DNA of 64,000 bases from assembly GCA_902500995.1 (NCBI GenBank), contig CABVSR010000007.1, positions 1 to 64,000 of the forward strand. Reading direction: 5' to 3'. Shown in pieces: positions 8,017-52,087 of this stretch. Below the pieces are notes generated by a model, which saw only the letters and a program-made list of their open reading frames with translations, was not told the origin of the DNA and ran no database searches. Within the stretch, counting starts at the first letter, position 1; each line of letters opens with the position of its first letter. This stretch comes from an uncultured Nitrospira sp. (lineage in GTDB: Bacteria > Nitrospirota > Nitrospiria > Nitrospirales > Nitrospiraceae). Position numbers and translations under genes: made by a program.

Positions 8017-9264
8017 ATGGCGAGGGTAGTCATCATCGGGGCGTCGATCGGTGGATTACCGGCGGCCTACGAAGCGCGGGATCTGTTGGCCAAGAAACAC
8101 AAGGTGACGGTGATTTCGAATGTTGAGTCATTTCACTTCGTGCCGTCGAATCCGTGGGTTGCGGTCGGATGGCGGAGCCGGAAGGACATCAGTTTTGCGT
8201 TGGGGCCGGTGTTGGAGAAAAAGGGGGTGGAGTACATCCATGCGACGGCGGACCGGATCGAGGCGGAACACAATCGCGTGATCACCTCCAAGGGCGAAGT
8301 GCCCTACGATTACTTGATCATTGCGACGGGGCCAAAGCTCAATTTCGGCGCGGTGCCGGGGCTGGGGCCGAGCGGCTATACCCAGTCCGTCTGCAATGTG
8401 GACCATGCCGAGCAGGCCTGGGGGACCTATCAGGCATTTTTGAAGGACCCTGGCCCCATCGTCGTGGGGGCGGCGCAGGGGGCCTCTTGTTTCGGCCCGG
8501 CTTATGAAATGGCGTTTATCCTGGATGCCGATCTTCGCAAGAAAAAGCTTCGCAAGAAGGTGCCGATCTATTTTGTCACGCCGGAACCCTATATTGGCCA
8601 CATGGGATTGGCGGGGGTAGGCGCGTCTCGCCGGCTGATGGAAGATGAGTTCGCCGAGCATGCGATGAAGCCGATTTGTAATACCGCGATCAAGGAAGTG
8701 CAGCCGGGGAAGATGCTGCTGGAGGGAGGGGAAGAGATTCCCTTCCGATACTCGATGATTATTCCGCCCTTCGCCGGGGTCGATGCGGTCGCGTCCACGC
8801 CGGGACTGTGTAATCCGAAGGGATTCGTGAATATCGATGCCTATCAGGCCAATCCCAAGTATAAAAATATCTATTCGGTCGGCGTCTGCGTGGCTATTCC
8901 TCCGGTGGAGCAGACACCCATTCCAACCGGCGCGCCCAAGACCGGGTACATGATCGAGTCGATGGTGTCGGCGGCCGTGCATAACATCAAGGCCGATATC
9001 GACGGCGACCCGAAACGTGAAACGGCGACGTGGAATGCGATCTGTCTCGCCGATATGGGGGATACCGGGGTGGCTTTCGTGGCGCTGCCGCAAATGGCCC
9101 CGCGCAATGTAACCTGGGCGAAAAAGGGCAAATGGGTGCATCTTGCCAAAATTGCGCTGGAGAAGTATTTCTTGCGCAAGATGAAAAAAGGCGTGAGCGA
9201 ACCGTACTACGAAAAGGTCGTGCTGCAGGCCATGGGGATCGCAAAGTTGGAAGGCCCGGCGTAG
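8017..9264 (+). CDS. sqr: Sulfide:quinone oxidoreductase
   Basis: Encodes 415 residues; GAAGGAGG (8003-8010) six bases before ATG 8017 fixes the start. A flavin-binding Rossmann motif opens the protein (VVIIGASIGGLPAA). All three redox cysteines expected of SQR can be placed: Cys126 (QSVCNV), Cys158 (GASCFG) and Cys343 (AICLADMGDTG), matching the three-cysteine pattern of characterised bacterial enzymes; sulfide-inert type II NADH dehydrogenases lack it. FAD enzymes of this family oxidise sulfide to polysulfide and reduce quinone at the membrane surface. The next gene is a TSUP exporter. Flavocytochrome c sulfide dehydrogenase is a less likely alternative, since no signal peptide or cytochrome partner is adjacent. 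Confidence 0.85.
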   Translation: MARVVIIGASIGGLPAAYEARDLLAKKHKVTVISNVESFHFVPSNPWVAVGWRSRKDISFALGPVLEKKGVEYIHATADRIEAEHNRVITSKGEVPYDYLIIATGPKLNFGAVPGLGPSGYTQSVCNVDHAEQAWGTYQAFLKDPGPIVVGAAQGASCFGPAYEMAFILDADLRKKKLRKKVPIYFVTPEPYIGHMGLAGVGASRRLMEDEFAEHAMKPICNTAIKEVQPGKMLLEGGEEIPFRYSMIIPPFAGVDAVASTPGLCNPKGFVNIDAYQANPKYKNIYSVGVCVAIPPVEQTPIPTGAPKTGYMIESMVSAAVHNIKADIDGDPKRETATWNAICLADMGDTGVAFVALPQMAPRNVTWAKKGKWVHLAKIALEKYFLRKMKKGVSEPYYEKVVLQAMGIAKLEGPA

Positions 9265-48455: not shown

Positions 48456-48691
48456 CGGAGCAAGCTGGCGCATTTTGCGACAGCGCCGGCACTTACCCGG
48501 TTCTGTAATTCCCCATCGTGAAGCGTCGCTCAGCCGTTTCCTCCCGGCACCCGCTTCAACCCCTTGTCAAAATTGTGACTTGACGGCTGCTTCTCGGCCA
48601 TCGCCTGGCACGCCCTCTGCTTTCGACACCTGCAGGTTGCCGCGGGGCGGGTGAGGGTTCACATAACGGTCAGGCGGGAAGGAGAATCATC

Positions 48692-49000
48692 ATGGCGGAT
48701 CACGATCATGAGTGTTCGGGACTCGGGGTGTCGATGGCCTTTATCAGCGGTGCGATGCTCGGCGCGATGGCCGCCATTCTGTATGCGCCCCATTCCGGGG
48801 AGGAGATTCGCCGGGCGATCAAGGGATATGCGCGGCGGACGGAAGAGGATGTGCTGGAGAAGGCCAAAGAAATCCGCGCGGATATTGCCCAGACGATGGA
48901 AGAGGCGAAACGGTACCTGAAGGAAACGGAAGCCACGATTGCCGCCGCGCTGGCGGCAGGAAAAGAAGCCTTCAAGAAGGAAAAGGCCGATCGAGCCTGA
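48692..49000 (+). CDS. YtxH-type small membrane protein
   Basis: Encodes 102 residues. After a polar start (DHDHECSGLG) comes one hydrophobic segment with the YtxH pattern (FISGAMLGAMAAILYAPHSGEEIRR), then a long amphipathic helix of about 60 residues (VLEKAKEIRADIAQTMEEAKR). YtxH proteins are stress-linked membrane-tethered coiled coils. AAGGAG lies just upstream of ATG 48692. Function unknown. Confidence 0.85.
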   Translation: MADHDHECSGLGVSMAFISGAMLGAMAAILYAPHSGEEIRRAIKGYARRTEEDVLEKAKEIRADIAQTMEEAKRYLKETEATIAAALAAGKEAFKKEKADRA

Positions 49001-49059: not shown

Positions 49060-49542
49060 ATGTCCGATGCGAAGATCAGCATCACGTTCGAGCAGGATCA
49101 CGACCGCCTCGATGCTCTGTTGACATCCTTCCAGCAGCAGAAACGAATCGATTTTGCCAAGGCCGCCGCGGCATTCGTGGAGTTTAAATCAGGACTTCAG
49201 CGCCACATCGTGTGGGAAGAAGATGTGTTGTTCCCGAAGTGGGAAGAGAACTCAGGCATGGCGGAAGGGGGGCCCACGCAGGTCATGCGGACGGAGCATC
49301 GCATCATCGGTGAGTGCCTGGAGGCGATTCATCAGAAAGTGCAGGCGAACAATCCCGACAGCGACCAGGAAGAACAGCGCCTGATCGACGTGTTGAAGAC
49401 GCATAACATGAAAGAAGAGCGCATTCTCTATCCCTCAATCGATCAGGTGATCAGCGATCAGGAACGAACGGAGCTGTATCAAGCCATGAAGGAGATTCCC
49501 GAAGAACGGTATCGAACCTGTTGCGGGAGCGAACGATCATGA
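49060..49542 (+). CDS. Hemerythrin HHE domain protein
   Basis: Encodes 160 residues from ATG 49060 (AAGGAG 49047-49052 seven bases upstream). The HHE pattern is well formed: FEQDHDRLDALL, FKSGLQRHIVWEEDVLFPKWE, RTEHRIIGECLEAIH and THNMKEERILYPSID provide His and Glu ligands for a di-iron site. The last residues include a CC pair. It overlaps the next gene (diheme cytochrome) by ATGA. Likely iron/oxygen/NO handling. Clearer than the HHE protein at 4655. Confidence 0.9.
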   Translation: MSDAKISITFEQDHDRLDALLTSFQQQKRIDFAKAAAAFVEFKSGLQRHIVWEEDVLFPKWEENSGMAEGGPTQVMRTEHRIIGECLEAIHQKVQANNPDSDQEEQRLIDVLKTHNMKEERILYPSIDQVISDQERTELYQAMKEIPEERYRTCCGSERS

Positions 49543-49925
49543 CAGGGCGGTGGCTCGCCGCCCTCTGCGGCCTGGCGGCCTTGCTCGTCGCGGGGGGTGC
49601 GCCCGAGGGAGCGGAGACATCGGCTGATCATGGCAGTCGCTCGCCGCAGCGGGAGTGGCTGCGCCCGGCGATGACCATCGCCGATAGCGGCGGGACGATG
49701 CCCAATCCTCACAGTGATTTGATCTTCCGGGCGACGGGCGCCACGAAATGTGTGGATTGTCATCGCACCGGCAAGGAAGGGCAGATCACGGGACTGATGC
49801 CAGACAACGCACTCGTTCAAGAGCTCAAGGCCAAGGCGAAGGGCATTCACGGGCCCGGCCGATTTGCGGACTGTTTGCGGTGCCATGCCGGAGGCAGCAA
49901 GGGAGTCGAGAAATACCGGAAGTAG
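49539..49925 (+). CDS. Small diheme cytochrome c, module A of the cassette
   Basis: Encodes 128 residues from ATG 49539, coupled to the hemerythrin gene. A signal peptide (about 1-26) is followed by two heme sites, CVDCHRTGKEG (near 78) and CLRCHAGG (near 116). The region NPHSDLIFRATGATKCVDCH and the later LVQELKAKAKGIHGPGRFADC has a clear match in the C-terminal half of the pentaheme protein at 50543, showing a shared two-heme unit. I do not recognise a named family. Together with the next two genes it forms a compact electron-transfer cassette. Confidence 0.85.
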   Translation: MTGRWLAALCGLAALLVAGGAPEGAETSADHGSRSPQREWLRPAMTIADSGGTMPNPHSDLIFRATGATKCVDCHRTGKEGQITGLMPDNALVQELKAKAKGIHGPGRFADCLRCHAGGSKGVEKYRK

Positions 49926-49951
49926 CCGTGGATGAGGAAGGGCGGGGGCTC

Positions 49952-50539
49952 ATGACGGGGGCGCGGGCGCGTCTCATCGCGGTGGTGGCGGCGACGATCG
50001 GCGCGGTCGTTAGTGCGCTGGCCTTTGAAGCGTTGCTCAGTCTGGACCAGGTGACCCCCTTCGGCCATACGCGGTACGGGCATGGCGTCGGCTGGGCAGG
50101 ACTCGCCGTCACGCTCTTCGTGTCCGGGTATCCGCTCATCAAGCGGCTTCGACCATCGCACCGGTGGCCGCGCAGGTGGTTCCGGGTCCATATGGTGGCA
50201 GGCGTGCTGGGGCCGCTGCTGATTTTCCTCCATTCCGGCGCCCACTATCATGCGATCGTTCCTATCCTGGCCATGCTGTCCATGGTCGTCGTGGTACTCA
50301 GTGGAATCATCGGGCAACTGGTGCACGCGTTCAGCCTGCGCGCGCTCAACGATCAACGCCGGGAGCTCCAGCACCAAGGGCTGTCCGAAGGCGATATCGA
50401 TGCGCATGTGCATGCCATGGCCTCTCAAGAAGTGGCGTTCCGCCTTTGGCAGGCGATCCATGCGCCGATGACGCTGATGTTCCTTGTCTTTACCCTGCTG
50501 CATGTTGCGGGGGCGTTATTCTTTGCGGGAATCTCGTGA
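49952..50539 (+). CDS. Membrane b-type cytochrome-like protein, module B
   Basis: Encodes 195 residues (ATG 49952; GTG 49928 is in frame but has no ribosome site). Four transmembrane segments: about 7-27, 43-60, 75-97 (VHMVAGVLGPLLIFLHSGAHY) and 155-190 (RLWQAIHAPMTLMFLVFTLLH is its core). Histidines at both ends of helices 3 and 4 are spaced like heme b ligands in FdhI/NarI/cytochrome b561-type subunits. It sits between two multiheme periplasmic cytochromes and could pass quinol electrons to them. Not a known NapC/NrfH protein. Confidence 0.75.
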   Translation: MTGARARLIAVVAATIGAVVSALAFEALLSLDQVTPFGHTRYGHGVGWAGLAVTLFVSGYPLIKRLRPSHRWPRRWFRVHMVAGVLGPLLIFLHSGAHYHAIVPILAMLSMVVVVLSGIIGQLVHAFSLRALNDQRRELQHQGLSEGDIDAHVHAMASQEVAFRLWQAIHAPMTLMFLVFTLLHVAGALFFAGIS

Positions 50540-50542
50540 GCC

Positions 50543-51106
50543 ATGCGCTACCTTCCGCTGCCGAGAACTGCGGTGCCGGTGGTCGCGCTGTCCACGCTGG
50601 TGCTGGTGATCTGGATCGGTTGGGGATCAGTGAGAAGTCCGGCGTCCTTTTGGGCTCCGGGCGATCTGAGTCGATACCATGTCGATACGGCCGGCTGTAC
50701 CTCTTGCCACGAGCCGTTTCGCGGACCGAGCGCCGCCCGTTGCGCCGGTTGCCACTCAGAACGATCGTTCGAGACCGGCACCACTCCTGCGAGCGGTGGC
50801 TGGCACCGGGATCTGATCACACGGCAGACGGCCTGTACAGGCTGCCACACGGAACATCGCGGGGCCTTGGCTCAGATCACCGAGCAGGCACGCAATAATC
50901 CACACGGTGAGTTTATCTTTCTCGCGACCGGGACGAATTCCTGCCTGGCGTGCCATGAGTTTGGAACGAGGGTGGCGATCAAACCGACGCTGCGAGATGA
51001 GCCGATCGTGCGGCAATTGTATGAGAAGGGGCGCGGCGCCCATCAATCGGGCCGGATGGGCACTTGTCTCGCCTGCCATGGCGGGGGTAGTAGTGAACGG
51101 AGGTGA
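50543..51106 (+). CDS. Pentaheme cytochrome c with N-terminal anchor, module C
   Basis: Encodes 187 residues, starting 4 bases after the preceding gene. A single N-terminal transmembrane helix (about 9-28) anchors a periplasmic domain with five heme sites: CTSCH, CAGCH, CTGCH, CLACH and CLACH. The last two, with NPHGEFIFLATGTNSCLACH and QLYEKGRGAHQSGRMGTC, repeat the diheme unit of the gene at 49539; the first three form a NapC/cytochrome c3-like triheme part. This is a small multiheme electron conduit. Exact relatives are not recognised. Confidence 0.85.
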   Translation: MRYLPLPRTAVPVVALSTLVLVIWIGWGSVRSPASFWAPGDLSRYHVDTAGCTSCHEPFRGPSAARCAGCHSERSFETGTTPASGGWHRDLITRQTACTGCHTEHRGALAQITEQARNNPHGEFIFLATGTNSCLACHEFGTRVAIKPTLRDEPIVRQLYEKGRGAHQSGRMGTCLACHGGGSSERR

Positions 51107-51207
51107 CCCGGTATACCTATCGAGAATCCGTTATTCGAATCATCGGCGCCGGTTACTGGTGAAAAGGAAAGGCTGTCTATGAGCATGAAAATAAGATATC
51201 GCGATGA
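51103..51207 (+). pseudogene. Remnant of a BrnT-type toxin gene
   Basis: Frame 51103 reads RYTYRESVIRIIGAGYW, then TGA (51160-51162), then KGKAVYEHENKISR and TGA (51205-51207). The VIRII...GYWRKGKxVYE ending is typical of BrnT-family RNase toxins; here the Arg codon (CGA) is TGA. Only the last 35 codons remain; the rest is missing upstream, where the pentaheme gene ends. The antitoxin start at 51179 overlaps it, as in intact brnTA operons. Confidence 0.7.
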
Positions 51208-51475
51208 GCCTTTGGGTGAGATTCGGGTCGTCCCGGATTTCCTGCCTTCTCCTGCCGAATTGGCGTTTCGCGATGAGGGGATCAAAGTGACGTTGGCCCT
51301 GAGCAAAAAGAGCGTGGACTTTTTCAAGGCTGAAGCCACCCGGCATCACACACAATATCAGCGTATGATTCGCCGTTTGCTCGATGCCTATGTCGAAAGG
51401 CAGCCGCAGAACCTGTCCACACGTTCGCCGCGGACCGCACGGGGGCGAGCGGCTCGTAAACGCAGCGCCGTGTAA
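51179..51475 (+). CDS. CopG/BrnA-type antitoxin, orphan
   Basis: Encodes 98 residues from ATG 51179 (AAGGAAAGG 51164-51172 upstream). The core RDEPLGEIRVVPDFLPSPAEL, then IKVTLALSKKSVDFFKAEA and HHTQYQRMIRRLLDAYVERQ is a ribbon-helix-helix antitoxin of the kind paired with BrnT. The C-terminal 25 residues are basic (RTARGRAARKRSAV) and could bind DNA or be an extension. The partner toxin is degraded just upstream, so this antitoxin now stands alone. Confidence 0.85.
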   Translation: MSMKIRYRDEPLGEIRVVPDFLPSPAELAFRDEGIKVTLALSKKSVDFFKAEATRHHTQYQRMIRRLLDAYVERQPQNLSTRSPRTARGRAARKRSAV

Positions 51476-51565
51476 GTTACGCCGTACCGTGTTCGATGTC
51501 AGTTGTTGTGACGCCTGTTCTTCCCTCTTGGCTTGCGCTATACTTTACCCACTGGAGTGCACTGC

Positions 51566-51805
51566 ATGCCAAAGATAGTTCCTACTCCTCCTCCTGGATT
51601 TGACGATCTCTCAGTTGATGAACGAATCGATTTCATCCAATCGCTCTGGGACCGGATCGCGGCGACTCCTGAGCAAGTACCTGTGCCCGAATGGCACCGG
51701 CGAATTATTCGCGAACGGCTTGAGGCATACCGCGAGAATCCCATGGCCGGTCGGTCCTGGACGGAAGTCCGGTCGGAGATTGAACGCAAGTTGCGGGAGC
51801 GTTGA
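51566..51805 (+). CDS. Addiction-module antitoxin (TIGR02574-type)
   Basis: Encodes 79 residues from ATG 51566 (GGAG 51554-51557 upstream). LSVDERIDFIQSLWDRIAATPEQVPVPEWHRRII and RSWTEVRSEIERKL match the short antitoxins, often called addiction-module component or stability-determinant proteins, that precede ParE/RelE toxins. It ends 8 bases before the broken toxin gene. Intact, so it remains as an orphan antitoxin. Confidence 0.85.
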   Translation: MPKIVPTPPPGFDDLSVDERIDFIQSLWDRIAATPEQVPVPEWHRRIIRERLEAYRENPMAGRSWTEVRSEIERKLRER

Positions 51806-51813
51806 TCCCCTGG

Positions 51814-52087
51814 ATGGCACGGCGGATCGTCGTCCAAGCTCAGTCTGACCTCGACATTCAAGCTGCGGCTGTATGGTATGAAGACCAACGATCCGGCTTG
51901 GGTGTGAGATTTCTGGACGAACTCGATCTCTTGTTTCAGCGGATCGATTCCAATCCTCGGCAATTTCCGTCGTGCGCTCCTCCGACACTTTCCTTATGGT
52001 GTGTATTTCATCGAAGCGGATGCCATCACAGTACTAGCGGTCCTTCACCTTCATCGAGAACCGGATATGTGGAAAAACCGTAGTTGA
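51814..52087 (+). pseudogene. Frameshifted ParE/RelE-type toxin
   Basis: From ATG 51814 the frame gives RRIVVQAQSDLDIQAAAVWY, EDQRSGLGVRFLDELD and QRIDSNPRQFP, a typical ParE/RelE start. At about 51963-51970 the homology jumps to a second frame: RRALLRHFPYGVYFIEAD, then AITVLAVLHLHREPDMW, ending at TGA 52085-52087, the usual ParE C terminus. About six residues (of the form FPVVxxxF) are missing and the frame shifts, so the gene is broken. Confidence 0.8.

Follow-up and report, generated by a model that had tools for sequence, protein, structure and literature searches.

A proposed cytochrome b-pentaheme cytochrome c conduit with a separable hemerythrin-diheme cytochrome module in Nitrospira

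In Geobacter, the inner-membrane bc-type menaquinol dehydrogenases CbcL and CbcBA supply small multiheme cytochromes of the periplasm with electrons (PMC12307469). A gene set found in an uncultured Nitrospira is likened to these systems by its proposed function, in which a secreted diheme cytochrome c (DH) would take the role of PpcA. The composition differs: here the b- and c-type hemes are assigned to separate subunits, a membrane cytochrome (MB) and an anchored pentaheme cytochrome (PH), while DH has two hemes and is a paralogue of the PH tail. With the tetraheme NapC/NrfH/CymA proteins PH has in common the membrane anchor, the multiheme c-type character and the presumed transfer from quinol to the periplasm, but its diheme b partner is a separate subunit, and PH scored far below the cut-offs of both NapC (10.4 against 24.1 bits, PF03264) and NrfH (16.9 against 134.2 bits, TIGR03153). 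The PH head (residues 41–111) matches in sequence the class III cytochromes (c3, c7 and small tetraheme c), from which the protein is set apart by three head hemes, an N-terminal anchor, a diheme tail and the constant pairing with MB. The sequence-only reading that preceded this analysis knew of no named system with the same gene order, and indeed the searches gave neither a close NapC/NrfH-type match nor a characterised system that combines these partners, while a literature search returned no description of this gene set. The MB-PH pair thus fits a bc-type inner-membrane conduit of a known kind, but with its own components. PH is not equated here with one of the two pentaheme cytochromes of the NXR-linked cluster NITMOv2_3614-3631 (PMC12342949), as no NxrC or TorD neighbours were seen around the examined loci.

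The window, i.e., the whole 64,000-nucleotide stretch of DNA analysed, belongs to a Nitrospira genome with N. defluvii and related MAGs as the nearest named relatives. DH, MB and PH were confirmed as adjacent genes at the previously proposed positions (Table 1), and the suggested translational coupling of the upstream gene of a hemerythrin-domain protein (HHE) to DH was borne out by an ATGA overlap. The gap between MB and PH is 3 bp, and the start of MB in the relatives corresponds to the downstream one of the two candidate positions. HHE was the best conserved member of the operon (78–91% identity within the genus) and can be assigned to the hemerythrin family both by its Pfam score and by the conserved ligand residues H14, H49, E53, H80, H115 and E119. 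By synteny, the YtxH-like gene is located 5' of HHE throughout the genus. Genes flanking the operon encode a class I cytochrome c, thioredoxin 2, an ADP-forming acyl-CoA synthetase, a universal stress protein and PPK2, the latter assigned by ORF similarity and not by a family search. The interval between PH and the acyl-CoA synthetase gene (51179–52083) contains small ORFs with homologues at varying distance in the sister species; one of them (51179–51475) gave a sub-threshold match to the BrnA antitoxin.

Table 1. Features of the operon region in the window (+, forward strand).
Feature	Coordinates	Strand	Evidence or remark
CTGGCGCATTTTGCGACAG, inverted repeat and candidate upstream activator site	48465..48483	+	third-ranked conserved block; putative function
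Sigma-54-type -24/-12 promoter CTGGCACGCCCTCTGCTTT (GG-N10-GC)	48605..48623	+	conserved in 18/18 distinct upstream regions
YtxH-like gene	48692..49000	+	first gene of the operon; Pfam YtxH 48 bits
HHE, cytosolic hemerythrin-domain protein	49060..49542	+	Pfam Hemerythrin 69.5 bits, cut-off 25.3
DH, secreted diheme cytochrome c	49539..49925	+	two CxxCH
MB, putative five-helix diheme b-type membrane cytochrome	49952..50539	+	alternative GTG start at 49928
PH, membrane-anchored pentaheme cytochrome c	50543..51106	+	five CxxCH; triheme head and diheme tail
Region of PH homologous to DH (diheme unit)	50894..51094	+	DH/PH alignment, shuffle test, tree

All three cytochromes would bind heme, judging from their conserved ligand motifs. 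MB had been described as a four-helix protein; the AlphaFold model (pLDDT 82) predicted five transmembrane helices instead. Among 35 diverse homologues, with identities down to approximately 22%, the only invariant histidines were H80, H94, H170 and H184, which form two H-x13-H pairs in the predicted helices 3 and 5. Such a two-helix layout of diheme ligands is that of transmembrane b cytochromes, e.g., NOX/FRD or cytochrome b of the bc1 complex. The invariant pattern, which includes the ligand arrangement of NOX/ferric reductases in all 35 sequences, gives good support to the assignment of these residues as heme b ligands and, with it, to the membrane-to-periplasm conduit proposed in the sequence-only reading. 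Judging from the loop charges of MB (seven K/R in loop 2 and none in loop 3), H80 and H170 lie towards the cytoplasm, while H94 and H184 lie towards the periplasm.

No characterised cytochrome b family could clearly claim MB as a member by sequence. Unlike NOX and ferric reductases, it had no fused dehydrogenase domain, and Ferric_reduct was absent among the family matches of the 35 MB members at E 0.01. The score against the prokaryotic cytochrome b561/HydC family (Ni_hydr_CYTB, PF01292) was 19.8 bits, below the Pfam gathering cut-off of 30.1; weak matches to the same family were present in 24 of the 35 homologues, also under the cut-off (e.g., 27.8 bits in L053). Against DUF4405 (PF14358), with its cut-off of 26.7 bits, MB scored 25.6 with one of the two candidate starts and 26.7 with the other. 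No match to solved structures was obtained by single-sequence or profile searches, and Foldseek alone gave no significant match for the model, mostly returning helical bundles. Structure comparison of the MB model ranked cytochrome b561 (Z 10.0), cytochrome b6 (9.8), SpNOX (9.2) and a hydrogenase cytochrome b (8.2) high and also showed similarity to NOX5. The natural membrane proteins near the top were mostly diheme b cytochromes; designed helical bundles scored equally well, and Z values of 8–10 are within the range of unrelated helical bundles. The fold match to the diheme b cytochromes, including NOX/ferric reductase and b561/HydC, is thus supportive only.

In PH, all five CxxCH motifs and exactly five further histidines (H46, H88, H105, H121 and H167) were invariant in 34 homologues, and in DH the two CxxCH motifs were accompanied by two further invariant histidines, H58 and H104 (17 homologues). 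With one additional invariant histidine for each heme, both proteins are likely to contain bis-His electron-transfer hemes. The N-terminal helix of PH (residues 10–31) was predicted with high confidence, while the model of the full protein was poor (pLDDT 59). The PH head exceeded the Pfam cut-offs (in brackets) of Cytochrom_CIII with 26.6 (22.9), Cytochrome_C7 with 26.5 (24.8) and Cytochrom_c3_2 with 25.5 (25) and aligned with c3, flavocytochrome c3 and small tetraheme cytochromes. Residues 56–121 of DH were 42% identical to residues 119–184 of PH (E 9e-18). The real DH-PH score of 157 originated from the C-terminal part of PH and was 14 SD above that of shuffled DH with the CxxCH positions held fixed (45 +/- 8, maximum 87 of 3000). 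A tree built from 59 diheme units, with only 61 columns, separated the free from the PH-embedded units across a single branch (support 100/98), which indicates one old duplication predating the genus; the origin of DH from this single ancient event, as a paralogue of the PH tail, is therefore well supported at the sequence level. The earlier description of PH as a triheme part (hemes I–III) fused to a duplicated diheme unit related to DH is well supported in both respects, except that the order of one motif has to be reversed: the Gly-rich stretch comes after, and not before, the second CxxCH. In L017 and in L042 (N. defluvii FP929003.1), the PH gene contains an internal tandem repeat (about 250 versus 187 residues), which would give seven heme motifs.

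The idea that the cassette might be missing from relatives was not substantiated, as MB was present in 24 of the 28 same-genus relatives, HHE in 27 and DH in 26. MB and PH were adjacent wherever both were intact, in Nitrospira as well as in order-level relatives, and in the 67 loci with both matches (some representing the same genome twice) PH was on the strand of MB, usually starting from -3 to +3 bp after it. Other families of the order had MB-PH without HHE and DH. Three same-genus genomes that are at least 99% complete (G007, G012 and G015) lacked MB and an intact PH, indicating that the pair is dispensable; two of them, G012 and G015, have kept HHE and DH, and in G015 a C-terminal pseudogene remnant of PH, 71% identical over 41 residues, was located 3' of the intact DH (L076, about 8790–8915). 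MB-PH and HHE-DH, therefore, occur without each other, and the single DH-MB-PH cassette of the sequence-only reading has to be replaced by an MB-PH core pair with a separable HHE-DH module. In G021 (L020 and L045), the MB gene is apparently interrupted by an in-frame TAA, possibly as a pseudogene or through an assembly error.

The partners of distant MB paralogues were cytochromes with 7, 10 or 27 hemes, and several of these paralogues also adjoined NAD(P)H/FAD/2Fe-2S reductases or a Pyr_redox/Fer4 flavoprotein. The PH homologues of the distant pairs have mainly the head in common, which makes the head a likely contact surface for MB. Class I cytochromes also adjoin MB-PH. In L021 (4248–7665; the same contig as L050), a di-heme cytochrome c peroxidase (CCP_MauG) and a class I cytochrome c are encoded immediately 5' of MB-PH. 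L031 (3755–8731) and L033 (3754–9209) contain a three-gene set of a flavoprotein, an MB paralogue and an FHA-domain decaheme cytochrome; the flavoprotein has Pyr_redox, two cNMP-binding and Fer4 domains, according to a domain search on L031 only. In L029 (3595–8762), the MB paralogue has a 27-CxxCH protein as its neighbour, and another protein, with 21 such motifs, is encoded nearby.

In most sister species, three 2-oxoacid:ferredoxin oxidoreductase genes and a cytochrome c'-like gene are located between YtxH and HHE. In the window genome no cytochrome c' homologue and only about 30% identical oxidoreductase paralogues were found, so both have apparently been lost, and the oxidoreductase was also lost in several relatives that keep MB-PH. 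The low-O2-induced ferredoxin oxidoreductase of N. marina was considered as its counterpart and rejected: that enzyme is reported to be absent from other Nitrospira except for Ca. N. alkalitolerans (PMC8115632), and the operon's enzyme was treated as distinct. The operon also adjoins the genes of the ADP-forming acyl-CoA synthetase and Usp. In the region 5' of YtxH, conservation was highest at the sigma-54-type box CTGGCACRTCCTCTGCTTT, with a 16-column identity of 0.95 against a mean of 0.40; the corresponding value for the inverted repeat was 0.77, and its sole exact match in the genome was this site. RpoN is present in the window genome, and 26 strong AAA domains of sigma-54 activators are encoded there as well. 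In order-level relatives, a PAS-containing sigma-54 activator is encoded 3' of MB-PH, and four of these relatives have a TGGCAC-type box 5' of the pair; the top full-length match of the activator in the window genome was G000:C23:399-1751. Its PAS region carries conserved cysteines (CxxC ... C) in that protein and in L022, L023, L054, L055, L057 and L058, possibly as a redox or metal sensor. The same promoter is also present 5' of operons without MB-PH (L075 and L076), so the regulation is not tied to MB-PH alone. With 3 mismatches allowed, matches to the sigma-54 box were no more numerous genome-wide than those of a reversed control, and no regulon is claimed. FNR-type boxes TTGAYNNNNRTCAA were considered as well and rejected (7 in the window against 4.3 expected, none 5' of the operon). 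From this context, the operon would be a sigma-54-controlled response to low oxygen or redox stress.

With a probability of roughly one half, MB-PH is read here as a two-subunit inner-membrane conduit that passes electrons from menaquinol to periplasmic c-type hemes and is switched on through sigma-54 under low oxygen or stress. The ligand pattern, the gene pairing, the paralogy and the conserved promoter box, on which this reading builds, are all evident at the sequence level. The two b hemes of MB would be stacked across the membrane, one held by H80-H170 close to the cytoplasm and the other by H94-H184 close to the periplasm. MB would draw electrons, most likely from menaquinol, and hand them over to the triheme head of PH anchored alongside, from which they would proceed through the diheme tail to its soluble paralogue, DH, or to further c cytochromes of the periplasm. 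Quinol is a plausible donor, although a quinone site was not readable from the MB sequence. Induction would occur together with hemerythrin from the sigma-54 promoter, when oxygen is low or in response to redox/NO stress, joined in the sister species by the 2-oxoacid:ferredoxin oxidoreductase and the cytochrome c'-like protein, and the pair would act as an electron outlet while normal respiration is limited. Heme binding, the donor, the direction, the inducing signal and the final acceptor are what we infer from this arrangement.

MB might instead be reduced directly from the cytoplasm by a ferredoxin or a flavoprotein encoded elsewhere, as part of an NAD(P)H- or ferredoxin-to-periplasm conduit resembling NOX and ferric reductases. 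The H-x13-H pairs in helices 3 and 5 and the structural likeness to SpNOX and NOX5 speak for such a donor, as do the FAD/NAD/Fer2 reductases adjoining distant MB pairs (L032, L034, L067 and L068) and the Pyr_redox-Fer4 flavoprotein beside the pair in L031 and, by position, in L033; the NAD(P)H-flavin-2Fe2S reductases beside some paralogues suggest an ability of the family to take electrons from cytosolic flavins. The ferredoxin would come from the oxidoreductase of the same operon in the sister species. However, the loss of that enzyme in the window species and in several relatives retaining MB-PH, together with the lack of an adjacent flavoprotein gene in the Nitrospira and order-level MB-PH loci examined, makes a cytoplasmic donor rather doubtful. 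A function in detoxification, with the electrons used for periplasmic removal of peroxide or NO and hemerythrin buffering O2/NO in the cytosol, is unlikely: cytochrome c peroxidase and the cytochrome c'-like protein would be the candidate periplasmic removers, and the operon does include a cytochrome c'-like gene together with hemerythrin, but the peroxidase directly 5' of MB-PH in L021/L050 represents one contig only, the search of the window genome gave no cytochrome c'-like gene, and hemerythrin was found without MB-PH.

It is distinctly unlikely that the whole set is a sigma-54-switched survival operon in which pyruvate oxidation, by the 2-oxoacid:ferredoxin oxidoreductase and the ADP-forming acyl-CoA synthetase, feeds the conduit and, further, the periplasm-facing nitrite oxidoreductase running in reverse, resulting in nitrate respiration without oxygen. 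Flow in the inward direction, from nitrite-reduced periplasmic cytochromes through MB to quinone at the expense of the membrane potential, would suit the reverse electron transport that Nitrospira must run for CO2 fixation (PMC12342949), and a transmembrane heme pair is reversible in principle. Such a role is highly improbable, however, since the operon context looks low-oxygen or fermentation-like and sigma-54-controlled, not constitutive, and since the pair is dispensable, as judged from its absence in G007, G012 and G015.

How electrons exit from the quinone pool to the periplasm in oxygen-short nitrite oxidisers is poorly understood, although N. moscoviensis has been documented to reduce nitrate with its nitrite oxidoreductase working in reverse (PMC12342949). 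The operon, read as a menaquinol-to-periplasm conduit, offers a concrete and testable candidate for such an exit in the N. defluvii group. The analysis also defines a little-described family in which MB proteins are paired with multiheme c cytochromes, some of them together with NAD(P)H reductases.
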